Shown: positions 2,790 through 42,265 of the stretch, piece by piece | How positions within the stretch are numbered: position 1 is the first letter of the stretch | Layout: every line of letters starts with the position of its first letter | Source: Clostridiales bacterium | GTDB lineage: Bacteria > Bacillota > Clostridia > Peptostreptococcales > Acidaminobacteraceae | Reading direction: 5' to 3' | Assembly (NCBI GenBank): GCA_016342415.1 | Contig: JAEIOD010000016.1 | Coordinates: 1 to 64,000 of the forward strand | DNA: 64,000 bases | The notes under the pieces: model-generated | What the model was told of the DNA's origin: nothing | Database searches by the model: none | Seen by the model: only the letters and a program-made list of their open reading frames with translations | Made by a program: the position numbers and the translations under genes

Positions 2790-2945
2790 CCCAGCGTGAA
2801 ATAGCTCAACTAACATTTATTGGGTAATAAATGTTAGACAGTATTATGCATATTATACATAATCCCAACATACATGGTATGTTTCGGCGATTAACCCTTT
2901 CCATTTAGTACTCATTTTAATCGCGACCTCAGATGACACACAGTC
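2790..2945 (-). promoter_or_regulatory. Lysine riboswitch (L box) aptamer
   Basis: Read on the minus strand, the leader carries the conserved L-box segments in order: GAGGTCGCG, ATGAGTA, GGAAAGG, CGCCGAA, TGTTGGG, ACTGTC, then a long P5-type hairpin (AACATTTATT with AATAAATGTT) and GAGCTATTTC. The order and spacing match the lysine riboswitch family, and it stands before lysA-lysC. Lysine binding is expected to favour the terminator at 2735-2768. The outer P1 stem is the part I could place least well, so the ends are approximate. Confidence 0.9.
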
Positions 2946-29976: not shown

Positions 29977-30007
29977 AAAAAAAACGACAGTGATTAAACT
30001 GTCGTTT
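29973..30007 (-). terminator. Intrinsic terminator of the aldolase gene
   Basis: On the minus strand AAAACGACAG-loop-CTGTCGTTTT followed by T residues and TTTATAAAAA. It lies back to back with the ppiB terminator. Confidence 0.85.
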
Positions 30008-30014
30008 TGCATTA

Positions 30015-30938
30015 TTATTTTCCAGAACCAAATACGTTGATGATTTTGTGCTTAACAAGTCTTGTTATTTCTGTTCTAGCTGGACCAACAAATTTTCTAG
30101 GATCAAATTCGCTTGGCTTCTCGTTGAATACTTTTCTGATTTGACCAGTAAAAGCAATTCTTAAGTCCGTGTCAACGTTAATTTTACAAACGCCCAATCT
30201 GTTTGCTTCTCTTAACATTTCATCTGGAACACCTTTAGATCCTTTAAGATCTGCACCATTGTCGTTACAAAGAGCTACAGCTTCTGGATAAACAGAAGAA
30301 GCGCCATGAAGTACTAATGGGAAGTTTGGTACTAATTCCATGATTTCTTTTAAGATACCATACTCTAACTTTGGCTCACCAGTGAATTTAACAGCACCAT
30401 GGCTAGTTCCTATAGCGATTGCTAATGAATCAACACCAGTTCTCTCTACGAACTCTTTAACTTGTTGTGGATCTGTGTAAGAAGAATCCTCTACTGATAC
30501 ATCAACGTCATCTTCAACACCAGCTAATCTACCAAGCTCTGCTTCAACAACAACGCCTCTAGCGTGAGCATATTCAACTACTTCTTTTGTTACTCTGATG
30601 TTTTCTTCGAAATCGTGGTGTGAACCATCAATCATTACTGAAGTAAATCCTAAATCAATAGCAGCTTTACATGCTTCGAAATCTGCACCGTGATCTAAGT
30701 GTAATGCAATATCAATTGTTGTATCTTCTACAGCCGCTTCAACTAACTTTTTTAAATAAGTTGGTCTAGCATATTTAATAGCTCCTGATGATACTTGTAA
30801 AATAACCGGAGAGTTTGTTTCTTGTGCTGCATCTACAATACCTTGAATAATCTCCATGTTATTAATGTTAAATGCACCAATAGCGTATCCGCCAGCATAT
30901 GCATCTGCAAACATTTGTTTCGTTGTAACTAATGCCAT
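30015..30938 (-). CDS. fba: Class II fructose-bisphosphate aldolase
   Basis: Zinc-dependent aldolase of 307 residues splitting fructose 1,6-bisphosphate. Zinc and catalytic motifs are visible: HLDHGAD near residue 82, MIDGSHHDFEEN, GRLAGVEDD, AIGTSHGAVKF and VLHGASSV. AGGAGG lies before the ATG at 30938; the longer reading has no RBS. It is transcribed alone. Dense, biased codon use suggests high expression, in keeping with a glycolytic enzyme. It works just downstream of the PPi-type phosphofructokinase at 15305. Confidence 0.95.
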   Translation of the reverse strand: MALVTTKQMFADAYAGGYAIGAFNINNMEIIQGIVDAAQETNSPVILQVSSGAIKYARPTYLKKLVEAAVEDTTIDIALHLDHGADFEACKAAIDLGFTSVMIDGSHHDFEENIRVTKEVVEYAHARGVVVEAELGRLAGVEDDVDVSVEDSSYTDPQQVKEFVERTGVDSLAIAIGTSHGAVKFTGEPKLEYGILKEIMELVPNFPLVLHGASSVYPEAVALCNDNGADLKGSKGVPDEMLREANRLGVCKINVDTDLRIAFTGQIRKVFNEKPSEFDPRKFVGPARTEITRLVKHKIINVFGSGK

Positions 30939-31169
30939 AATTGACCTCCTGTAATATATTTCCCAATGCTTTAAAAGCATACTTACCATATTCATACCAT
31001 AAAAAAGATATTATAAACGTTTTTATGTTACGGGATTTGTTGTATAATACTTCTTAGCAAACCCTTATATATAATACCATATAAATTTTAGAAAATAAAA
31101 AGATTTACAGGAAAAAGACCAGGAAAACGATTGCTAATTGTATAAATGCCGTTACAGGTAGGAGAAGCC

Positions 31170-32489
31170 ATGAAATTACCAGAAAAATTTGAAGAACAAA
31201 TGAAAGATCAGCTAAATGAATCATACGATGATTTTCTAAAAACTTATGGTGAAGAAACACATCGAGGTATTCGTGTGAATACGCTCAAAATATCTGTTGA
31301 AGAGTTTTTAAAAATCACACCATTTGAGTTGGAATCCATCCCATGGACGGATGATGGATTTTACATAAAAGACATAAGACCGGCAAAACACCCTCATTAT
31401 TTTGCAGGCCTTTATTATATTCAAGAACCGTCTGCTATGTTACCTGCAGTGGTATTAAATCCAACACATCAAGATGTGGTATTGGATTTATGTGCAGCAC
31501 CAGGTGGAAAAAGTATGCAACTGGCAGCGATGATGAAAAATCGAGGTTTATTGATTGCCAATGATATCAGTAGTAATAGATTAAGAGCACTGATTCGTAA
31601 TGCTGAACTTATGGGGGTCAAAAATTTAGTCGTATTAAATGAAAAACAAGATAAAATAAAAAATGCCCTGTATCATAAAGTGGATAAACTCTTAATTGAT
31701 GCACCTTGTTCAGGCGAAGGCATGTTTAAGAAACATGAGGATGCCATCAGTGCATATGAACATTATGATGTTGAAGCTTGTGTGAGTATGCAAGAGGCGA
31801 TACTTGACGATATTTTACACGTCTTAAACGGACAAGGCGAAGTGGTTTATTCGACTTGTACATTCAATATTTTTGAAAATGAGAACATGATACGTTATGC
31901 CATGAATCAAATGGACTTGGATTTAAAAGAAATACCCAAGGCATATGGATTTATTCCAGGAATAGGACTGAAGGAAGTCGCAAGGCTGTATCCTCATTTG
32001 ATTAGAGGGGAAGGACATTTTGCTGCTCATATGGTCAAAAAATCCGAAAAAGAATCGGTTCGCTTTGATAAAAGTATTGTAGCACCTCCAGATGCGCTAA
32101 TGGAATTTATGAAAGTCTATTTGAATCAACCACTTAAAGGACATTTTAAAGTTATTAAAGATAAAGTGTTTTTATTACCTGAAAGTATGTTATCATTTAG
32201 TTCTGTAAAAGTAGTGAAAACAGGTTGGTATATTGGTGAACTTAAGAAAAATAGATTTGAGCCATCGCATGCATTTGCTTTAGGTCTTAACAGGCATATG
32301 TTTAAACAAACCATTAATTTTGAAAGTGATTCAACAGAAGTAACAAAATATTTGAAATGCGAAACGATCTTTTGTGAAGGTCAAAAGGGGTACAATCTTA
32401 TTTGTGTGGATGGTTATCCTATCGGATGGGGAAAATGGGCCAATGGGAAGTTAAAGAATTTATATCCGTCAGCGTGGAGGTTGTCATGA
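31170..32489 (+). CDS. RsmF/NOL1-Nop2-Sun type rRNA 5-methylcytosine methyltransferase
   Basis: A 439-residue SAM-dependent RNA methyltransferase. It has the SAM-binding DLCAAPGGKSMQ, the PC motif DAPCSGEGMF and the TC motif YSTCTFN, the two-cysteine chemistry of the m5C family. The C-terminal 150 residues form a PUA-like RNA-binding part similar to RsmF/YebU. Start at 31170 is based on TAGGAG ahead of it. The stop overlaps the next start as ATGA, so the next pseudouridine synthase is co-translated. The exact rRNA position cannot be read from the sequence. Confidence 0.9.
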   Translation: MKLPEKFEEQMKDQLNESYDDFLKTYGEETHRGIRVNTLKISVEEFLKITPFELESIPWTDDGFYIKDIRPAKHPHYFAGLYYIQEPSAMLPAVVLNPTHQDVVLDLCAAPGGKSMQLAAMMKNRGLLIANDISSNRLRALIRNAELMGVKNLVVLNEKQDKIKNALYHKVDKLLIDAPCSGEGMFKKHEDAISAYEHYDVEACVSMQEAILDDILHVLNGQGEVVYSTCTFNIFENENMIRYAMNQMDLDLKEIPKAYGFIPGIGLKEVARLYPHLIRGEGHFAAHMVKKSEKESVRFDKSIVAPPDALMEFMKVYLNQPLKGHFKVIKDKVFLLPESMLSFSSVKVVKTGWYIGELKKNRFEPSHAFALGLNRHMFKQTINFESDSTEVTKYLKCETIFCEGQKGYNLICVDGYPIGWGKWANGKLKNLYPSAWRLS

Positions 32490-33202
32490 GATTAGATAAA
32501 TTTATTAGCAATATGGGTTTAGGAACAAGAAGTCAAGTAAAAAAAATGATTTCTAGAGGCAGAGTTGTCGTTAATGAAGAAGTTGTTAGAAAAACAGGAT
32601 TTATAATTAATCCAGATAGTGATGAGATTTTTCTGGATGAAATGCTTGTTGCATACGATGCTTATGTATATATTGTAATGAATAAACCGATAGATGTGAT
32701 TTCTGCTACAAATGATACCAGACATGAGACTGTTATTGATTTGGTAAAAGAAACTTATGGTAATAGAAAGTTATTTCCAGTAGGTCGATTGGACATTGAT
32801 ACAGAAGGGATGATTTTAATTACAGACGATGGTAAATGGAGCCATGATTTGATGTCGCCTAAAAAACATGTGAAGAAGAAATACTTCGCCCATGTAGCAG
32901 GTCGTGTTACTGAAAAGGAAATCGATTTATTCAAGTCGGGTGTTACTTTAACCGATGAAACACTTTGTCTACCTGGAGAACTTGAGATCATTAGTGTAGA
33001 AGATGGATTGTCTAAGGTCTACTTAACTATTACTGAAGGCAAGTTCCATCAAGTGAAAAGAATGTTTGAGGCAGTTGATATGGAAGTGACGTATTTAAAA
33101 CGTATTGAAATTGCTGGATTAGCTCTAGATGAAACCATTGAACTAGGAGATTATAGAGAACTTACAGAAGAAGAAATGGAAAAAATAAAGCTTGAAGATT
33201 AA
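32486..33202 (+). CDS. RsuA/RluB/RluF-family pseudouridine synthase
   Basis: A 238-residue enzyme with an N-terminal S4 RNA-binding domain (MRLDKFISNMGLGTRSQVKK) and a catalytic domain with GRLDIDTEGM, the aspartate of this family. It most resembles RsuA, the 16S rRNA U516 enzyme, but paralogues differ in target. GGAGG precedes the ATG at 32486, which overlaps the methyltransferase stop by four bases. A terminator stem overlaps its own stop codon. Confidence 0.9.
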   Translation: MRLDKFISNMGLGTRSQVKKMISRGRVVVNEEVVRKTGFIINPDSDEIFLDEMLVAYDAYVYIVMNKPIDVISATNDTRHETVIDLVKETYGNRKLFPVGRLDIDTEGMILITDDGKWSHDLMSPKKHVKKKYFAHVAGRVTEKEIDLFKSGVTLTDETLCLPGELEIISVEDGLSKVYLTITEGKFHQVKRMFEAVDMEVTYLKRIEIAGLALDETIELGDYRELTEEEMEKIKLED

Positions 33203-33217
33203 TCTTCAAGCTTTTGG
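33187..33217 (+). terminator. Bidirectional terminator overlapping the RsuA stop codon
   Basis: AAAGCTTGAAGAT / ATCTTCAAGCTTT stem followed by TT on the plus strand and TTTATTTTTTCC on the minus strand, so it serves both convergent genes. Confidence 0.7.
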
Positions 33218-33219
33218 TA

Positions 33220-33723
33220 TTATTGACCTGCAATGACATTGATGATTTCTTCCACGGTCATGCCTGTATTCAAGTTGAAATTACCAGCTCTTAATTTGTT
33301 ACCTAAATTCATTTCATCTAACTTTTGAATGAATGAATCCACACTATCGATTAGACCTTCAGCTTCAAGGTTGGTTGCAATCTTATAACCCGGTGAGCCT
33401 GGAGCAACTGTAAATGAAACATCTTTGATTTCTACTACTTGAGTTGTATCTTCTGTTTCTGTTGTGTCTGTGTCCTCAGGTACTATTTCAGTCACTGTAT
33501 CCTCAGGAGTTGTGTCAATAACTGTATTGATATCATCTATCGATGGTGTTGATGCATCATTAAAATCTGCAATAGCACTGTCGTCACGGGTTAAGTTTGA
33601 AAACCATGAGACTTGCATGGTATCTGTCAGTTTCCATGAAACTACGATGAATATTATAGCTATAATTAATAGTGAAAAGAATAAATCACTGATATCATAT
33701 AAAAAATCTTTTACCTTCTCCAT
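33220..33723 (-). CDS. Membrane-anchored MltG/YceG-like protein without catalytic domain
   Basis: A 167-residue protein with one N-terminal membrane helix (about 16-32), an acidic, threonine-rich linker with repeated ED-T motifs (about 55-105) and a C-terminal piece (about 108-167) ending GNFNLNTGMTVEEIINVIAGQ, which matches the LysM-like entry domain of the MltG/YceG endolytic transglycosylase family. The catalytic glutamate-bearing domain that follows it in MltG is missing. GGGAGGG precedes the ATG. Several Firmicutes carry such short YceG-like proteins. Cell-wall binding is likely; lytic activity is not. Confidence 0.7.
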   Translation of the reverse strand: MEKVKDFLYDISDLFFSLLIIAIIFIVVSWKLTDTMQVSWFSNLTRDDSAIADFNDASTPSIDDINTVIDTTPEDTVTEIVPEDTDTTETEDTTQVVEIKDVSFTVAPGSPGYKIATNLEAEGLIDSVDSFIQKLDEMNLGNKLRAGNFNLNTGMTVEEIINVIAGQ

Positions 33724-33859
33724 ATTGCCCTCCCAATCATCTAATAGAATACCATATTTCTAGAAAAAATACATCTAAATTCACTCTCGGTAATATGTTT
33801 TTAACATGTTGGATTTAAATGTCATTTTACTTTATAATATAATAGAACGGAGGATGATT

Positions 33860-34708
33860 TTGAGCTTGATAAAAAAACTAACACAAACAGATCATGAAAT
33901 AGTGAAATCCTATATTTATCAAAATTTCTGGGGTTGTATTGAAATTGCAAAAGTATTTGATAAAAATGGTCTTAAAAATAAATTATCAGATAAGAATTCA
34001 GGAGACTTTTTAGGTTTTTTTACAGATGAAAATAATCTAGAAGGTATTTTTGTTTTTACCAATAACAAACGATTTTTATTGCATGTTAAAAATAATGATG
34101 TGACTAAAAAAGTAGATTTGTTAAAAGCGATTAAATATTATAAACCAGAATATATGTCTGGACCTTCAAAACATGTGGAGATGGTTTGGCAGATGTTTGA
34201 AAGGACTGTAAAAAGGTATAAATACAGTAACAGTATGTATATGGTTTTAGAGGATTACCAAACACTACTGGATGAGTTTAAGGAAAATAGAAGCATCAGA
34301 GAGGCTTCAAAAGGAGATGCAAAGAAACAGATCAAGTTCTTCCTAGAGCTGGAAAAACACTTTGGAAGAAATCATATGACAATCAACCAATTGCAAAATC
34401 GAATTGTAGAACGTATTGGATTGAACGAGTATTTGGTTATTGACGATGGTATTCGGATTGTAGCACAAGGTTTCGTAGAAGATAAGATAAAAGCATTTTC
34501 TCAAATTGGTGGGATTTATACCACGCCTAAATTTAGAAACAATGGTTTTTCAAGATCCATCGTAGAGCATTTAAGTTACTACACGATACAAAAAGGCAAT
34601 ATTCCAATATTAGCAGTTTTAAAGGATAACATCTCTGCTATTAAGGTATATGAATCACTTCAGTTTAAAGCTAAAGTCGATTTTTCAATTATAGAATTAG
34701 AATTTTAA
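33860..34708 (+). CDS. GNAT-family N-acetyltransferase
   Basis: A 282-residue protein whose C-terminal third is a GNAT fold: IGGIYTTPKFRNNGFSRSIV contains the acetyl-CoA pyrophosphate loop, followed by NISAIKVYESLQF, the usual alpha4 motif. The N-terminal 150 residues are not recognised and may be a degenerate GNAT half. Start: GGAGG is followed six bases later by the TTG at 33860; the ATG at 33854 would overlap the ribosome site. It opens a run with RluC-like, HEPN, kinase and phosphatase genes. The substrate is unknown. Confidence 0.8.
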   Translation: MSLIKKLTQTDHEIVKSYIYQNFWGCIEIAKVFDKNGLKNKLSDKNSGDFLGFFTDENNLEGIFVFTNNKRFLLHVKNNDVTKKVDLLKAIKYYKPEYMSGPSKHVEMVWQMFERTVKRYKYSNSMYMVLEDYQTLLDEFKENRSIREASKGDAKKQIKFFLELEKHFGRNHMTINQLQNRIVERIGLNEYLVIDDGIRIVAQGFVEDKIKAFSQIGGIYTTPKFRNNGFSRSIVEHLSYYTIQKGNIPILAVLKDNISAIKVYESLQFKAKVDFSIIELEF

Positions 34709-34719
34709 AGGATGGCATC

Positions 34720-35616
34720 ATGAGAACAATTAGAGTGACAGAAAATGAAATGGATCAAAGATTGGATAGATTTTTAACCAAATATTTGAATAAAGCGACA
34801 AAAACGAATATCTTCAAATTGATTAGAAAAAAAAGAATAAGAGTCAATGGTTCACGTGCGGAGGAAAAATACTTTTTGCAACTGGGTGATGAAATTCAGA
34901 TACACTTGCATGAAGATGCAATAGATGAAATGATTAAACCGATTGAGATGATTGAAGCAGAAGAAATCAACTTGGATATTGTTTATGAAGATGACGACAT
35001 CTTAATTGTGAACAAACCGGTTGGACTTTTGACACATCCGGATTCTAAAGAATATAAAAATACTCTGGCTTCAAAAGTACAAGTATATCTGAAACACTTA
35101 ACTACAAGGACTTTCAGACCGGCTTCCATTCAAAGACTGGATAAAAATACAAGTGGTTTGGTGATTTTTGGTAAGAATTATGCCTCGCTCAAGAAATACA
35201 ATGAGTATATGCGAGAAAGAAAAATCGGAAAATTTTATTTGGCAGTTGTTTCAGGTAAGCCAAAAGATTCGGGAGAGGTTAAAGGTTATTTAACTAAAAA
35301 TGAAGCTACTAATAAAATTAGTATTTCAAAGAATGAGTCAGATGAAGCTAAATTTGTACATACAAAGTACAAATTATTGAAAACAAATGGGAAGTACAGT
35401 TTGTTGGAAGTTGAATTGTTAACTGGACGGACACATCAAATTAGAGGCTCGCTAGCCTATATTGGTCATCCTATTGTAGGTGATGTGAAATATGGTGGTG
35501 AACGTTTAGATCGTCAAAATCAATTGCTACATGCTTATAGAGTGGTAATTGAGGACAAGGAATATATGAAATCCTCTAAAGAAATAGAAGCATTTTTAAA
35601 ACAACAAAACATCTAG
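34720..35616 (+). CDS. RluA/RluC-family pseudouridine synthase
   Basis: Pseudouridine synthase of 298 residues acting on RNA. An S4 domain (residues 1-60) precedes the catalytic domain with the aspartate in QRLDKNTSGLVIF (family: HRLDxxTSG) and TGRTHQIR. It most resembles RluC/RluD type enzymes that modify 23S rRNA, but the target cannot be fixed from sequence. RBS AAAGGATG. It is 11 bases after the GNAT gene and 14 bases before the HEPN gene. Confidence 0.9.
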   Translation: MRTIRVTENEMDQRLDRFLTKYLNKATKTNIFKLIRKKRIRVNGSRAEEKYFLQLGDEIQIHLHEDAIDEMIKPIEMIEAEEINLDIVYEDDDILIVNKPVGLLTHPDSKEYKNTLASKVQVYLKHLTTRTFRPASIQRLDKNTSGLVIFGKNYASLKKYNEYMRERKIGKFYLAVVSGKPKDSGEVKGYLTKNEATNKISISKNESDEAKFVHTKYKLLKTNGKYSLLEVELLTGRTHQIRGSLAYIGHPIVGDVKYGGERLDRQNQLLHAYRVVIEDKEYMKSSKEIEAFLKQQNI

Positions 35617-35630
35617 ATTAAGGGGACAAT

Positions 35631-36404
35631 TTGAGCGAATATAAAACTATTAGACAATTGATTAATCGTTATGATTATGGTGGTGCGCTAGATTTATTAA
35701 AAGACTTGGATTTTGGAGAGACAGATGCTGCGGCGCTTGTCAACTCATGCAGATATGCCGTGAACTTTGACTTCAAAACAGCAAAACATATCCTAACGGA
35801 TTTACCAGAGGAGCGAAAAGCTCAAAGTGAAGTTAAGGTGATGATCAAGAATCTGGATTCTTTAATTGATGGACATCCTGATGCGATGTTTTCTGAGTTA
35901 ATGGAAAACATCAAGTTTCAGATTGTTAATGAAGAATATATAGATTTTCTGGGAAGAGTTTATCGTTTCAAAGAGGCCATATTAAAGTATATTTTTGTAA
36001 AGAATCATATAGGTAAGTCAAGATTTTCTTTGATATCATTGCACATGGAAAAAAGAGAAGTTCTTAAGAAACTTAGAAAAAAATATAAGATTTACAATTC
36101 AAATCTTATGTTTGGTATTACGACTTATATTCATCGTTATTTAAAAAAAGAATTCAAGTATAGTGAAATTGAAAAGATACTGAATTCTGATCATATGAAT
36201 TCATTAATAGAGCTTAGAAATGATTCGATAGTAGGTCATGGATTTAAAGGTGTCTCAGTAGATGATATATACAGGTTTTATGGTAATCCATATAATGTTT
36301 TAGATGATTTCGATAAATGTTTGAAAAAGTTGGATATTAAGTTGTTTAGATATAAATACAGTATTATCAATGAGTATATTGAAACTTTATTAGATGAACT
36401 ATAG
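35631..36404 (+). CDS. HEPN-domain protein, Csm6-HEPN-like, no CARF domain
   Basis: I infer a HEPN ribonuclease fold for this 257-residue helical protein. Residues 196-203 read R-N-D-S-I-V-G-H followed by GF, the R-X6-H pattern of HEPN nucleases, in an ELRN...HG context as in the C-terminal part of Csm6/Csx1 proteins. The N-terminal NRYDYGGALDLL (12-23) is also like the start of that domain. No CARF sensor, CRISPR array or cas gene is in the window, and no MNT-type antitoxin is adjacent. TTG start after AGGGGA. It is co-oriented between rluC-like and nucleoside-kinase-like genes with short gaps, so is probably co-transcribed. It could be an RNase, a toxin or an RNA-binding relic. Confidence 0.65.
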   Translation: MSEYKTIRQLINRYDYGGALDLLKDLDFGETDAAALVNSCRYAVNFDFKTAKHILTDLPEERKAQSEVKVMIKNLDSLIDGHPDAMFSELMENIKFQIVNEEYIDFLGRVYRFKEAILKYIFVKNHIGKSRFSLISLHMEKREVLKKLRKKYKIYNSNLMFGITTYIHRYLKKEFKYSEIEKILNSDHMNSLIELRNDSIVGHGFKGVSVDDIYRFYGNPYNVLDDFDKCLKKLDIKLFRYKYSIINEYIETLLDEL

Positions 36405-36417
36405 AAAGGAGTCTTTT

Positions 36418-38064
36418 ATGTTTAAAGTAACTATTGGAGATCAAATTAGTGAGTTTAATGAACCTGTTGTTTTAGAACGGATTTCTGAAGCTTATCAGAA
36501 TGAAGGGGCACCTCTTATAGTTGCTGCTCTGGTTGATAATAAATTAAGAGAACTTTTCTTTGAATTAAATGAGGATTGTGAGATTTCCTGGATTACATTG
36601 GAACATTCAGACGGTATTCGAATTTATCAAAGAACGTTATCATTTTTGTTTATACGAGCAGCCATGGAAGTTTTTAGAGAATTACATGTGAATGTTCGTC
36701 ACTCGTTGAGTAAAGGATTATACTGTGATTTCGACTATCATAGAGAATTAGATGAAAATGATATTTTAAAGATAAAAATTCGAATGGATGAGATTGTAAA
36801 AAGAGGTGAAGTGATTCATAAGGCTTCCGTTGAAGTTGAAGAGGCAAAAACCATTTTTGAGGATTTGAAATTTAGTTCTAAAGCGAAATTATTAAAATAT
36901 AGATCGCATGATTTTATCAACATCTACACTTGTGGTTGGATAAAAAACTATTTTTATGGTTATATGTTGCCTGATGTTAGTTATCTGAAGTGTTTCGATG
37001 TTATTAAATATGATGTTGGCGTTATATTAAGACATCCGACTACAGACTCGCCATTGGCACTTCCAACCTTTGAAGAACATAAAAAATTAGCCCAAACTTT
37101 TAGGGAATCAGAAGCATGGGGTGATATTGTGAGTGTTGGAAATGTTTTTGAACTTAATGATGAAATTGAAAAAGAAAATTATAAGGAACTGATGATATTG
37201 GGAGAAGCTTTACATGAAAAGAAAGTAGCTCAAATCGCAGATCAAATAACAAAAGCGAATAAAAAAGTAATTTTAATTGCCGGACCTTCATCATCTGGAA
37301 AAACAACATTTGCTAATAGACTTCGAATTCAATTAAAAGTAAATGGAATTAATCCGATAACTCTATCAACGGATGATTATTTTGTTGACAGACAGTTTAC
37401 ACCTGTAGATGAATATGGCAACATTGATTTTGAATCCATTGATGCCGTCGATGTTAAACAGTTCAACTTGGATTTGGCGAGTTTGGTTGCTGGAAAAGAA
37501 GTTGAATTACCAACTTTTAATTTTATTGAGGGCTGTAGAGAATACAATGGCAAGATGCTTCAGATTCACGAAAACCAACCCATTATCATAGAAGGTATAC
37601 ACGGATTAAATGAAAAATTGACCAATCAAATTGATGCAGAACATAAATTTAAAATCTATATCAGTGCTTTAACACAGCTTAATATTGATGATCATAATCG
37701 AATTCCTACAACTGATTCTAGGTTAATTAGGAGAATTGTTCGTGATAGCAAGTACCGAGGACATGATGCCGTTACTACTATTAGACTGTGGCCGTCTGTA
37801 AGACGTGGAGAAGAAAAAAATATATTTCCATTCCAAGAAGAAGCAGATGTTATTTTTAACTCAGCCCTTAGTTTTGAATTGGCAGTTTTAAAGAAACATG
37901 CAGAACCGCTTCTTGAGGCTATTTCGGAAACGGTTGATGAATATAAAGAAGCCAAACGGTTACTAAAGTTTCTCAGTTATTTTGAGTCTATTGATGATGA
38001 CACTTTGGTGCCGATAACATCAATCTTGAAAGAATTTATTGGTGGTAGTTATTTCACAGAATAA
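36418..38064 (+). CDS. Nucleoside (uridine)-kinase-like protein with N-terminal TGS/ThrRS-like domains
   Basis: A 548-residue protein of the Firmicutes type that joins a threonyl-tRNA-synthetase-like N-terminal half (about 1-250, TGS plus second-additional-domain-like) to a P-loop kinase (about 280-500). The kinase has AGPSSSGKTTFA, LSTDDYF and IIIEGIHGLNE, as in uridine and phosphoribulokinase families. The start is at 36418 because AGAAAGGAG lies before it; the longer reading overlaps the HEPN gene. It is 13 bases after the HEPN stop. The substrate in this family is not firmly known; uridine kinase is the usual guess. Confidence 0.82.
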   Translation: MFKVTIGDQISEFNEPVVLERISEAYQNEGAPLIVAALVDNKLRELFFELNEDCEISWITLEHSDGIRIYQRTLSFLFIRAAMEVFRELHVNVRHSLSKGLYCDFDYHRELDENDILKIKIRMDEIVKRGEVIHKASVEVEEAKTIFEDLKFSSKAKLLKYRSHDFINIYTCGWIKNYFYGYMLPDVSYLKCFDVIKYDVGVILRHPTTDSPLALPTFEEHKKLAQTFRESEAWGDIVSVGNVFELNDEIEKENYKELMILGEALHEKKVAQIADQITKANKKVILIAGPSSSGKTTFANRLRIQLKVNGINPITLSTDDYFVDRQFTPVDEYGNIDFESIDAVDVKQFNLDLASLVAGKEVELPTFNFIEGCREYNGKMLQIHENQPIIIEGIHGLNEKLTNQIDAEHKFKIYISALTQLNIDDHNRIPTTDSRLIRRIVRDSKYRGHDAVTTIRLWPSVRRGEEKNIFPFQEEADVIFNSALSFELAVLKKHAEPLLEAISETVDEYKEAKRLLKFLSYFESIDDDTLVPITSILKEFIGGSYFTE

Positions 38065-38077
38065 AAAGGGTTATTAA

Positions 38078-39733
38078 ATGAAATTTTTGAGAAAACTTTA
38101 TGAACAAGTATTTTACTCTGAATATGGAGAGTTGGCAACGACATCAATTTTGGTAACAAGTTTGTTTATTTTTATTTACTTATTTGAAATTCCAGTCATG
38201 TCAATGTTGAATAATATGGGGCTATTAAATCTGCCCTATGTTTTCGAGTTTGCATCAATTGTTACGATAATTCTTATCGTTAGTATTTGTAGTCGTGCTA
38301 TTAGGACTTCTAATGCGTTAAGGATGCTTATTTACACAATTTTTTTTGCTGTATCTGTAGGCGTTTCTTTTATAGCATTTTCAAATGTCTATTGGTTTGC
38401 TGATACAATCAGTTATGAAACCTTAACAGTCTTCTCTTCTTTGAGTAAATTTATATTTTCACTTGGTTTACTAGGAGGTGCTGCAGTACCGCTGACTATT
38501 AAAATGAAACAAAAAAAACAAGGTATTGTTCGTTTGATTATCTTAATCATATGGAGTTTTGCAGCTTTTATAATGTTAAAAATCACCAATAACAGAATGT
38601 TGTTGGATATATCTCATATCAGTATTAGATGGTATACCTTATTAGAGTACTTAACGGCGGTTATTTTAATAATAGCTTTTGCAATACATTTCAGATCTTA
38701 TACCATTGAAAAGAAAAAGTTTGTATTAAAGTTTATGAATGGTATTGCTATTTTAATCATTGCCCAAGTGGTACGATTAACTTTTATGAGATATACATTT
38801 GTATATCATTTAATCTATAGCTTGTATATGTTTATTGGCTATTACTATCTATATCATTCTCTATTTGAATATAATATTGTTACACCGGTTAATGAGTTGA
38901 TTAATGAGGAAAAGCAAATCAAACTATACGCTGAAAACTTAGAAGTCATTGTTGATAGGCGTACAACGGAAATGAGCAGCAATAACATGCGATTGATTCA
39001 AGAAATTGAATATGCAAAAAGTATTCAGCAGTCATTGCTACCTGCTAGAAAAGTAAATTTTAACAAAGTCATTTTTACATCGGAATATTTTCCTTGTGAA
39101 AGGCTAAGTGGTGATTTCTTCGATATTTATAGGTTAGATGATGATAATATTGGGATGTATGTATTAGATGTGTCGGGACATGGCGTTTCTGCGGCATTGA
39201 TGACGATGTTTTGCAACAACTATATCAAATCATCAGAGAAACTTATAATGAAATACAGAGGTTTAAAACCACATAGGAACCTAAAACACTTCTATGAAGA
39301 ATTTAATAAAATGAATTTTCCTGATGAAATGTACATGGTAATGTTCTTTGCATCTTATAATATTGAAAGTGGTATCTTAACTTATGCATCTGGTGGTATC
39401 AATTGTTACCCTTTATTAATGAGAAAAGATGGTACAAAAGAGTATTTGGATAAGAGCCAAGGTTTTCCTATTTGCAAGATGAGTGATTTCTTTACACCAA
39501 CTTATACCAGTGAAACCATTCAATTAACAAAGGGTGATCGAATTATTTTTTACACGGATGGATTGGTTGACAATGTTAAGAATGATACTATATCAGAAGA
39601 GTTGTTAGAAGAGGTCATGTATAATTACAGAGATTTGAGTTTGAAAAGCCTTAACAATAAAATAAAATCTTATATTCACACAGAGGATGGCTCAAATGAA
39701 GATGATATAACATATTTCATAATGGAAATATAG
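38078..39733 (+). CDS. Membrane PP2C (SpoIIE/RsbU-type) serine phosphatase
   Basis: A 551-residue protein with seven or eight membrane helices in residues 15-275, a short coiled coil (about 280-320, ending IEYAKSIQQSLLP) and a PP2C phosphatase (about 330-551). The metal-binding marks are RLSGDFFDIY, VLDVSGHGVSA and FYTDGLVD, as in RsbU and SpoIIE. Such enzymes dephosphorylate anti-anti-sigma factors; no STAS or anti-sigma gene is next to it, so the target must be elsewhere. No strong RBS is seen (AAAGGGTT), and it lies 14 bases after the kinase gene. A terminator follows at 39844. Confidence 0.88.
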   Translation: MKFLRKLYEQVFYSEYGELATTSILVTSLFIFIYLFEIPVMSMLNNMGLLNLPYVFEFASIVTIILIVSICSRAIRTSNALRMLIYTIFFAVSVGVSFIAFSNVYWFADTISYETLTVFSSLSKFIFSLGLLGGAAVPLTIKMKQKKQGIVRLIILIIWSFAAFIMLKITNNRMLLDISHISIRWYTLLEYLTAVILIIAFAIHFRSYTIEKKKFVLKFMNGIAILIIAQVVRLTFMRYTFVYHLIYSLYMFIGYYYLYHSLFEYNIVTPVNELINEEKQIKLYAENLEVIVDRRTTEMSSNNMRLIQEIEYAKSIQQSLLPARKVNFNKVIFTSEYFPCERLSGDFFDIYRLDDDNIGMYVLDVSGHGVSAALMTMFCNNYIKSSEKLIMKYRGLKPHRNLKHFYEEFNKMNFPDEMYMVMFFASYNIESGILTYASGGINCYPLLMRKDGTKEYLDKSQGFPICKMSDFFTPTYTSETIQLTKGDRIIFYTDGLVDNVKNDTISEELLEEVMYNYRDLSLKSLNNKIKSYIHTEDGSNEDDITYFIMEI

Positions 39734-39843
39734 TTTTTGAAATGTGAATGAGTTGTAACAAATACGTATTTTTTTGTCATAAGCTTATTACATAATAAAC
39801 ACAGACGAAAAGTATCTTTTAAGAATTTTATATATGATATTGC

Positions 39844-39892
39844 GAAAAGACCTGGATTGGCTATATAGCTAGTTTTCAAGGGTCTTTTTTAT
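39844..39892 (+). terminator. Intrinsic terminator after the PP2C gene
   Basis: GAAAAGACC pairs with GGTCTTTT across a loop holding a further TATATAG hairpin, followed by T residues. Confidence 0.7.
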
Positions 39893-39934
39893 AATATTCT
39901 GACAGTTGATGTGATGAATATATCCTACTATAAT
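39893..39934 (+). promoter_or_regulatory. Sigma-A promoter of oppA1 with CodY-like box
   Basis: TTGATG (39906) and TATAAT (39929) are 17 bases apart. AATATTCTGACAGTT at 39893-39907 matches 12 of 15 positions of the known CodY motif AATTTTCWGAAAATT and overlaps the -35, which would suit repression. Confidence 0.7.
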
Positions 39935-39987
39935 TGCAGGTGACAATAAGAGCCTTAACAGGCAAACTAATCTAAAGGGGGATTACA

Positions 39988-41760
39988 ATGTTTAAAAAAT
40001 CATTGATTTTACTTCTTACTGTAATTTTAGCATTATCAGCTGTTTTAGTTGGTTGTGGTGGAAACAACAATGAGAATGTAAATGATACAACAAATGAAAC
40101 AACAAACGCTACTGACAATGCAACAGAGAATACAAACAATTCTACAAATGATGCTACAGTAGAAGACAATACAGCGGAATTAGAAGCTGCTGCTGAAACT
40201 AATCCAGCAATCAACAGAGGTAACGTACTTACAGTTGCTGAAACTGGATTTGATGGTATTTTCAATCCAATCTTATACTCAAACAAAACAGATGCTAATA
40301 TTACTGATTTAGTATTCAACGGTTTGATCAAAGTTAACAAGAATGGTGAGTATGTACCTGATGTTGCTACTTGGGAAGTATCTGAAGATAAGTTAACTTA
40401 TACTTTCAGCATTACTCCAGGAATCAAATTCCACAATGGTGAAGAGTTAACTTCTGACGACGTTGCTTTTACATTCTATTCAATTGCTGATCCTGATTAT
40501 GTAGGTGCAAGAGGACCTGCTGTATCTGATATCGTAGGTGTTGAATCATATAGAAGTGGTGAAGCTGAAGCAATCGAAGGTATCAACGTAATTGATGATT
40601 ACACAATTGCTTTCACAATTGAAGAGCCAAATGTAAAGAAAATTACGGACTTCGGTTATGGAATCTTAAATAGAGACTACTATGGATTTGAATCAATGGA
40701 GGAATTAGAAGCATTAAATGCGACTCCAATGGGTACTGGTCCAATGATGTTCAAAGTTTATGAAGTAGGTCAATATGTAGAATTAACTACAAATGATGAT
40801 TACTTCGAAGGTAGAGCATACGTTGATGGTGTTATCTACAAAGTTGTTCCTGCTGCTACTGCAGCTGCTGCTGTAAACGCTGGTGACGTTGACGTTGCTC
40901 AAGTTTCTGCAAGTTTAGAAAACTATGATACAATGACTGAAGCTGGAATTGCTGAAGTACAAGAATTCTTAGGAAACTCTTACAGATATATCGGAATCAA
41001 CTTAAGATTAGAAAAATTCTCTGATAAGAGAGTTAGACAAGCATTATGGTATGGTCTTAACTTAAAAGACTTTATAGACGCTCAATGGGAAGGTTTTGCT
41101 GCACCATGTTTAGCACCAATTTCTCCAGTATCTTGGGCTTATCCTGACACTTCAGAGTTGAACAGTTATGACTTCAACCCAGAAAAAGCATCTGCATTAT
41201 TAGCTGAAGCTGGATGGGTTGATACTGATGGTGATGGAATCTTAGATAAAGATGGCGAAAAGTTATCAATCGTATGGACTTCATACAATGATGTTGACTG
41301 GCCTTTAAACCTAATCGCAGTTGCTAAAGAGAACTGGGGAGCATTAGGTATTGAATTAGAAGGATTATTAATGGAGTTTACAGCTGTTTCTGATTTAGTA
41401 TACGAAAAGCAAGACTTCGAGTTATACAACATGGGTTGGAGCTTAGCTATTGATCCAGATCCAACTGCAATCTTCGGTGAAGACGCTGATGTTCTTGGTG
41501 GATTTAACGCTATTGGTTTCCACCACGAAAGAGCTAACGAGATCTTCAGATTAGGTAGATCTGAATATGATCAAGCTAAGAGAGCTGAGTTATATGCTGA
41601 GTGGGCAAAAATTGCTAACGAAGAAGTTCCTTACATCTTCGTATCAATTGGAACTACAATTAACGGTGTTAACAACAGAGTTCACAATTTAGAGTTAGAC
41701 ACTTACGATGGTGTTGCTGCTCAAATTTTAGATATTGAGTTAGATCACTTAAATAAATAA
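39988..41760 (+). CDS. Oligopeptide ABC transporter substrate-binding lipoprotein, copy 1
   Basis: Extracellular family-5 solute-binding protein of 590 residues, the peptide receptor of the opp system. A lipoprotein signal ends at VGCGG (Cys23), followed by an asparagine/threonine-rich linker (about 24-60) and the binding domain beginning RGNVLTVAETGFDGIFNPI. AAAGGGGGA precedes the ATG. It shares almost all of residues 300-590 with the copies at 42266 and 46215. A strong terminator follows, so it is transcribed alone from the promoter at 39906. Highly biased codon use suggests abundant protein. Confidence 0.92.
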   Translation: MFKKSLILLLTVILALSAVLVGCGGNNNENVNDTTNETTNATDNATENTNNSTNDATVEDNTAELEAAAETNPAINRGNVLTVAETGFDGIFNPILYSNKTDANITDLVFNGLIKVNKNGEYVPDVATWEVSEDKLTYTFSITPGIKFHNGEELTSDDVAFTFYSIADPDYVGARGPAVSDIVGVESYRSGEAEAIEGINVIDDYTIAFTIEEPNVKKITDFGYGILNRDYYGFESMEELEALNATPMGTGPMMFKVYEVGQYVELTTNDDYFEGRAYVDGVIYKVVPAATAAAAVNAGDVDVAQVSASLENYDTMTEAGIAEVQEFLGNSYRYIGINLRLEKFSDKRVRQALWYGLNLKDFIDAQWEGFAAPCLAPISPVSWAYPDTSELNSYDFNPEKASALLAEAGWVDTDGDGILDKDGEKLSIVWTSYNDVDWPLNLIAVAKENWGALGIELEGLLMEFTAVSDLVYEKQDFELYNMGWSLAIDPDPTAIFGEDADVLGGFNAIGFHHERANEIFRLGRSEYDQAKRAELYAEWAKIANEEVPYIFVSIGTTINGVNNRVHNLELDTYDGVAAQILDIELDHLNK

Positions 41761-41765
41761 GTCTT

Positions 41766-41796
41766 AAAGCCCAGCTGATGCTGGGCTTTTTTTTTC
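41766..41796 (+). terminator. Intrinsic terminator after oppA1
   Basis: AAAGCCCAGC-TGAT-GCTGGGCTTT stem with more than eight T residues. Confidence 0.9.
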
Positions 41797-42265
41797 TATG
41801 AAAGTCAAAATACGCTTTCTGTAACAATTAAATAATTCAGTTATTTCAAAGTTTACTTAACCTAAAAATTATTTTTTATGTGTTAAGAACAGAGTGGAAA
41901 ATTAACCTTAACAAATTATGATAATCTAAATAAATGAATTTAATTTATAGAACTTGAACAGAAATAAAGCAGTCAAAAAAAAAAAGGAAGGTCATTTTAT
42001 TTCGGTTTTGTAACGAAATCGATGTAATTGTTAATAAAAAGACGTTTCTTAGATACATAGAAGACACATCTTTTTTAACAATTGTTAAATTATTTATGCG
42101 GATTAGTAACAATATTCTGACAATTCAGTCGTTTCAATGATTACGTGTTAAATATGTGTTTTTTCAACGGTTTGACCTTGTCGCCATTACCTTCTAAACT
42201 GTAAGTGTACATGTACGAGTATACAAACAAACGCATAGGATATTAATCGAAAAGGAGATGGTAGT
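41797..42265. other. Gene-free regulatory region before oppA2
   Basis: 470 bases without an open frame. It holds an A-rich tract near 41975, a perfect 14-base palindrome TTAACAATTGTTAA at 42075-42088, a CodY-like box at 42111 and the oppA2 promoter at 42172. Other stretches (41797-42070) are AT-rich with short direct repeats and no element I can name. Confidence 0.5.
42111..42200 (+). promoter_or_regulatory. oppA2 promoter and upstream CodY-like box
   Basis: AATATTCTGACAATT at 42111-42125 matches 13 of 15 positions of the CodY motif. TTGACC (42172) and TAAACT (42195) have a 17-base spacer. The box lies 46 bases ahead of the -35, so it could act differently from the sites at oppA1 and oppA4. 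Confidence 0.6.

Follow-up and report, generated by a model that had tools for sequence, protein, structure and literature searches.

A Csm6-type HEPN protein without a CARF domain, predicted to be a vertically inherited cellular endoribonuclease in one order of Clostridia

In the literature, CRISPR-linked HEPN families of the Csm6/Csx1 kind carry a fused CARF domain and have ties to CRISPR or defence (PMC3710099, PMC12669027). Anantharaman et al. described four CRISPR-linked HEPN families, each of them CARF-fused (PMC3710099). In the EiCsm6 homodimer the HEPN domains jointly build a single composite site that includes R372, N373, H377 and R274, and basal RNase activity without cyclic oligoadenylate (cOA) is seen in some Csm6 enzymes (PMC7101355). 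HEPN RNases can also have a core cellular role rather than one in defence, as for the eukaryotic housekeeping proteins Las1 and the KEN domain of Ire1, which belong to different HEPN families (PMC3710099).

Here we discuss a CARF-less HEPN protein encoded in a window of 64,000 nucleotides, the whole stretch analysed, from contig JAEIOD010000016.1 of a bacterium of the Acidaminobacteraceae (Table 1). It has the same full-length 6H+HEPN fold and R-X4-6-H motif as Csm6/Csx1 (profiles PDLC01509, TIGR02672, PF09670 and PF22206; structures 4rgp, 8pe3, 6tug and 5fsh), but differs from these effectors in the absence of CARF and of a type III locus, in its vertical inheritance, in its housekeeping neighbourhood and in strong purifying selection. 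HEPN-MNT pairs and RnlA/LsoA-type toxins are likewise stand-alone HEPN proteins with this motif; in contrast to them, the solo protein has no MNT or other antitoxin gene, matches the Csm6 6H+HEPN region and has no mobile copies in the collections searched. We found no description of a CARF-less Csm6 in the literature searched, the CARF classification of Makarova (2020) lying outside its scope, and relative to that literature a CARF-free, vertically inherited Csm6-type RNase, as predicted from sequence, appears to be new.

Table 1. Features at and around the HEPN gene (positions in the window)
Feature	Position	Strand	Basis
GNAT acetyltransferase, first of same-strand run	33806..34708	+	PF08445
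RluD-type pseudouridine synthase (S4 + PseudoU_synth_2), upstream neighbour	34720..35616	+	Pfam; synteny
Shine-Dalgarno-like AAGGGGAC	35620..35627	+	sequence, just 5' of TTG start
CARF-less Csm6-type 6H+HEPN protein, predicted metal-independent endoribonuclease	35631..36404	+	PDLC01509; AF2 fold; R196/H203 in 60/60
6H / TPR-like helical region, residues ~1-80; Y16, F46-D47-F48 conserved	35631..35870	+	PF22206 Csm6 6H 3e-4; helices 2-80; conservation
HEPN first long helix R109-V-Y-R112-F-K-E115-A-I-L-K119	35955..35987	+	conservation
Catalytic motif R196-X6-H203	36216..36239	+	invariant 60/60; PF09670 Csm6 HEPN match
Uridine-kinase-like protein, ThrRS-like N-terminal part; overlaps HEPN gene 11 nt	36394..38064	+	PF00485, NF004018, TIGR00418; synteny
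Membrane sensor + SpoIIE/RsbU-type phosphatase, last of run	38078..39733	+	PF07228

Domain content, fold and catalytic residues

The open reading frame starts with TTG and its translation has 257 residues; it is confirmed as a real gene. In the PADLOC Csx1 model PDLC01509, residues 4-254 align to model positions 187-439 of 440 (E 6.1e-34), and the protein thus begins where CARF ends, at the CARF/6H boundary, without the N-terminal sensor; the RluD gene ends 14 nt 5' of it. The same boundary, with a start at model position ~180-195, is seen in the great majority of ~55 homologues, and other Csm6/Csx1 CARF-HEPN profile models concur for the window's protein. Its matches to the Pfam families Csm6 HEPN (PF09670) and Csm6 6H (PF22206) are slightly below the cut-offs, and the TIGR02672 equivalog scores 37 bits for a cut-off of 150.

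The first-pass annotation had called the protein all-helical, and the AlphaFold2 model agrees, with 15 helices (mean pLDDT 95.4, pTM 0.91; a monomer built from an alignment of 42 sequences). When this model was compared with solved structures, as the annotation had proposed, a Csm6-type 6H+HEPN fold was found: over residues 1-255, 4rgp gave Z 16.9 (225 aligned, 3.4 A), followed by 8pe3 (15.7), 5yjc (15.2), 6tug (15.1) and 5fsh (12.9). The top nine entries are all Csm6 structures whose matches span the whole protein, a ranking subject to the usual caveat for helical proteins, and the best structure outside Csm6/Csx1 is a partial, TPR-like match (Z 9.7). The kinship to Csm6 was seen by fold comparison and by PADLOC, NCBIfam and Pfam profiles only; searches of solved structures by sequence, with a single sequence or a profile, found no Csm6, and a PHROGs search gave no match. 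With its helical bundle and conserved R-X4-6-H motif the protein belongs to the HEPN superfamily. PDLC01509 and the predicted fold (four Csm6 structures at Z 15-17) mark it as a complete 6H+HEPN half, lacking CARF, of a Csm6/Csx1 effector.

The residues R196-NDSIVG-H203 (R-X6-H) and NRYDYGGALDLL, on which the HEPN assignment had originally been based, are present in the translation. R196 and H203 proved invariant in 60 of 60 solo homologues, down to ~31% identity, and the motif is therefore, on sequence comparison, not due to chance. Also invariant in the solo proteins are G202, G204, R109, R112, E115, D105 and E89; N197 is replaced by H in some homologues. The nearest longer relatives (those of genomes G383, G782 and G968) have the R109/R112/E115 and F46/F48 positions in common with the solo form; they retain R196, H203, R109, R112, E115, D105 and E89, which thus count as inherited parts of the catalytic core of Csm6. 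These three relatives differ from the solo proteins at K119 and N247, which are invariant in the latter. For ten pairs of the HEPN gene dN/dS was 0.02-0.19, similar to the housekeeping neighbours, with many dS values near saturation.

Inheritance pattern

Homologues were found in 55 of 118 genomes of relatives, counting one degraded remnant. The gene is present in 39 of the 41 genomes of the host's family, the two genomes without it being 63% and 70% complete, and it occurs, at one copy per genome, in this family and three more of the same order; it is absent from other families of the order, for an order-wide count of 90 of 394 genomes. It is also absent from a genome that is Clostridioides-like by its RpoB (reference 7l7b, from C. 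difficile). The remnant (G079:C3:98529-98924) lies between RluD and Udk genes and indicates that the HEPN gene can be lost.

Wider samples, with 391 genomes from the class and 348 from the phylum, yielded solo proteins of the same order and otherwise longer open reading frames (440-548 aa), apart from one case at a contig edge. The latter (G929, L124:6172-7083, - strand) is a 303-aa Csm6-like 6H+HEPN reading frame without CARF from another order, possibly truncated, with TrmI, GerM and metallo-beta-lactamase genes as neighbours; as a lone case, absent from seven genomes of its order, it was rejected as a second CARF-less lineage. Four of the longer relatives (G017, G112, G205 and G383) were scanned with PADLOC and all four are CARF-HEPN proteins; for those of G782, G968 and G1062 length was the only criterion.

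In a tree made by a quick method the solo proteins lie on one side of the branch that separates them from the CARF-fused relatives, and families f3 (probably Peptostreptococcaceae), f5 and f11 each form one clade. Loss of CARF, rather than its gain, is the more economical reading of these sequences; it is not proven, since the tree has no root and very long branches lead to the CARF-fused proteins.

Proposed function and competing explanations

We consider it probable (roughly two chances in three) that the protein is a sensor-less CRISPR effector RNase that was exapted as a cellular endoribonuclease and is inherited vertically in one order of Clostridia. Its ancestor would have been a type III effector of the Csm6/Csx1 kind that lost the N-terminal CARF sensor; early in the history of the order with Acidaminobacteraceae, Caminicellaceae and probably Peptostreptococcaceae, its gene would have become fixed in the chromosome. 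If the protein behaves like Csm6, two molecules would pair as a homodimer whose composite R-X6-H site would cleave single-stranded RNA without metal. The expected activity is that of a dimeric, metal-independent endoribonuclease, because the R-N...H motif and the two invariant arginines on the first HEPN helix are kept. Switching by cOA in the known way would be impossible without CARF, and control would have to come from a low level of expression, from a partner protein or from the RNA substrate itself. Its function would most likely be endonucleolytic turnover or processing of cellular RNA, constitutive or triggered by stress, rather than phage defence; the vertical, slowly evolving and apparently non-mobile pattern favours such a role.

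HEPN RNases are usually toxins or abortive-infection proteins (PMC3710099), and an active CARF-free RNase would need some control. The protein could accordingly be a CRISPR-independent abortive-infection or stress toxin that is held in check by a partner, for example through acetylation by the GNAT protein whose gene opens the same-strand run, or by another inhibitor, until infection or stress releases it and growth stops. We regard this as unlikely, since the gene is vertical, near-universal in the family and as slow to evolve as housekeeping genes. Searches of 72,556 plasmid records, 50,697 phage records and viral contigs found no relative of the protein. Moreover, no partner gene is conserved across all HEPN loci (GNAT was recognized in 22 of 66) and no MNT nucleotidyltransferase, the antitoxin of HEPN-MNT pairs, was found among the neighbour clusters examined, the adjacent genes in the window encoding RluD and the uridine-kinase-like protein.

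That the HEPN fold is retained only as a non-catalytic RNA-binding or scaffold protein is quite improbable. Some HEPN families lack the motif and may bind RNA instead (PMC3710099), and K119 and N247, as residues specific to the solo form, might belong to a new surface; against this, neither catalytic residue varies, nor do the two flanking glycines, R109, R112 or E115. Of the two options offered by the first-pass annotation, RNase or RNA-binding factor, the former is the better fit, as the entire catalytic motif is conserved.

The nearest domain relatives are the Csm6/Csx1 proteins of type III loci, and a defence effector could in principle act in trans with a type III CRISPR or other oligonucleotide-signalling system. 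This reading is strongly disfavoured, as there is no CARF, and the gene is found in nearly all genomes of the family while type III RAMP/Cas7 proteins (PF03787) occur in 2 of 41. Among the 118 genomes, RAMPs are present in 8 of 55 with the HEPN gene and 11 of 63 without it (Fisher p 0.80); RAMPs were used for this test because the Cas10 model PDLC01293 missed a III-D-like locus in G017. In the host genome no RAMP/Cas7 and no true Cas10 were found: among its top three matches to the Cas10 palm (PF22335), Pfam identifies two as GGDEF diguanylate cyclases, and stops break the frame of the third. No CRISPR-like repeat array was seen within positions 30000-42000, and there was no match to a CRISPR RNA family in the window. 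The initial view of a stand-alone, CRISPR-independent HEPN protein, with neither CARF nor cas genes, an MNT partner or a CRISPR array seen nearby, is thus supported, and is strengthened by the four CARF-fused relatives scanned, which adjoin type III Cas10/Cas7 genes. As CARF and linkage to type III CRISPR-Cas were both looked for and not found, the protein is not itself a Csm6/Csx1 CRISPR effector, though its mode of action should be that of a Csm6 HEPN domain. Genome G017 encodes the solo form and, beside III-D-like Cas7 genes, also a separate CARF-HEPN protein (L087), a natural setting in which to compare both forms within the same cell.

A decaying Csm6 gene, which the missing CARF and the one real remnant might bring to mind, is refuted for the family as a whole by the low dN/dS and by reading frames that are intact in nearly all homologues.

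Returning to the exapted cellular endoribonuclease, a further-reaching version is that a CRISPR immune nuclease became a core endoribonuclease of an order, its sensor swapped for another control, as a bacterial counterpart of Las1 or Ire1. We put this forward tentatively, at slightly less than even odds; the gene is dispensable in some lineages, as the remnant, the families without it and the Clostridioides-like genome indicate, which counts against the exaptation reading in either version. A conserved CARF-free member suggests that cells can domesticate an RNase of collateral damage and keep its gene permanently; the question that follows is what restrains it now. Such a protein would also allow catalysis to be studied apart from cOA control in a 6H+HEPN enzyme that occurs naturally. 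With a PADLOC Csx1 match at E ~1e-33, homology scans may report CRISPR ancillary genes in CRISPR-free genomes.

Gene neighbourhood

The HEPN gene is the third of a same-strand cluster, GNAT-RluD-HEPN-Udk-RsbU, with gaps of 11, 14, -11 and 13 nt and no terminator-like site found on the + strand inside it. The cluster had been taken for a housekeeping RNA-modification operon, of which RluD is indeed a member, but RluD is the sole RNA-modification gene there; RsmF and RsuA-like genes lie upstream, cut off by a divergent gene (33220-33723, - strand). In relatives the gene typically lies beside RluD and/or the uridine-kinase-like gene, and the order RluD-HEPN-Udk recurs; outside the window's genus, many loci have signal peptidase I (LepB), a CBS-pair protein or other genes separating HEPN from Udk. 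In family f3, RluD was not recognized next to the HEPN gene, and the order HEPN-LepB-Udk is kept in most loci. The recurrent RluD and Udk neighbours are a hint at RNA or nucleotide metabolism.

The divergent gene, facing away from GNAT and RluD, encodes a short protein that probably has one membrane helix and has an end partly resembling YceG/MltG; in 48 of 66 loci its cluster is again found upstream. Elsewhere in the window, positions 2794-2940 (- strand) match the Lysine riboswitch (Rfam RF00168) with 65 bits.
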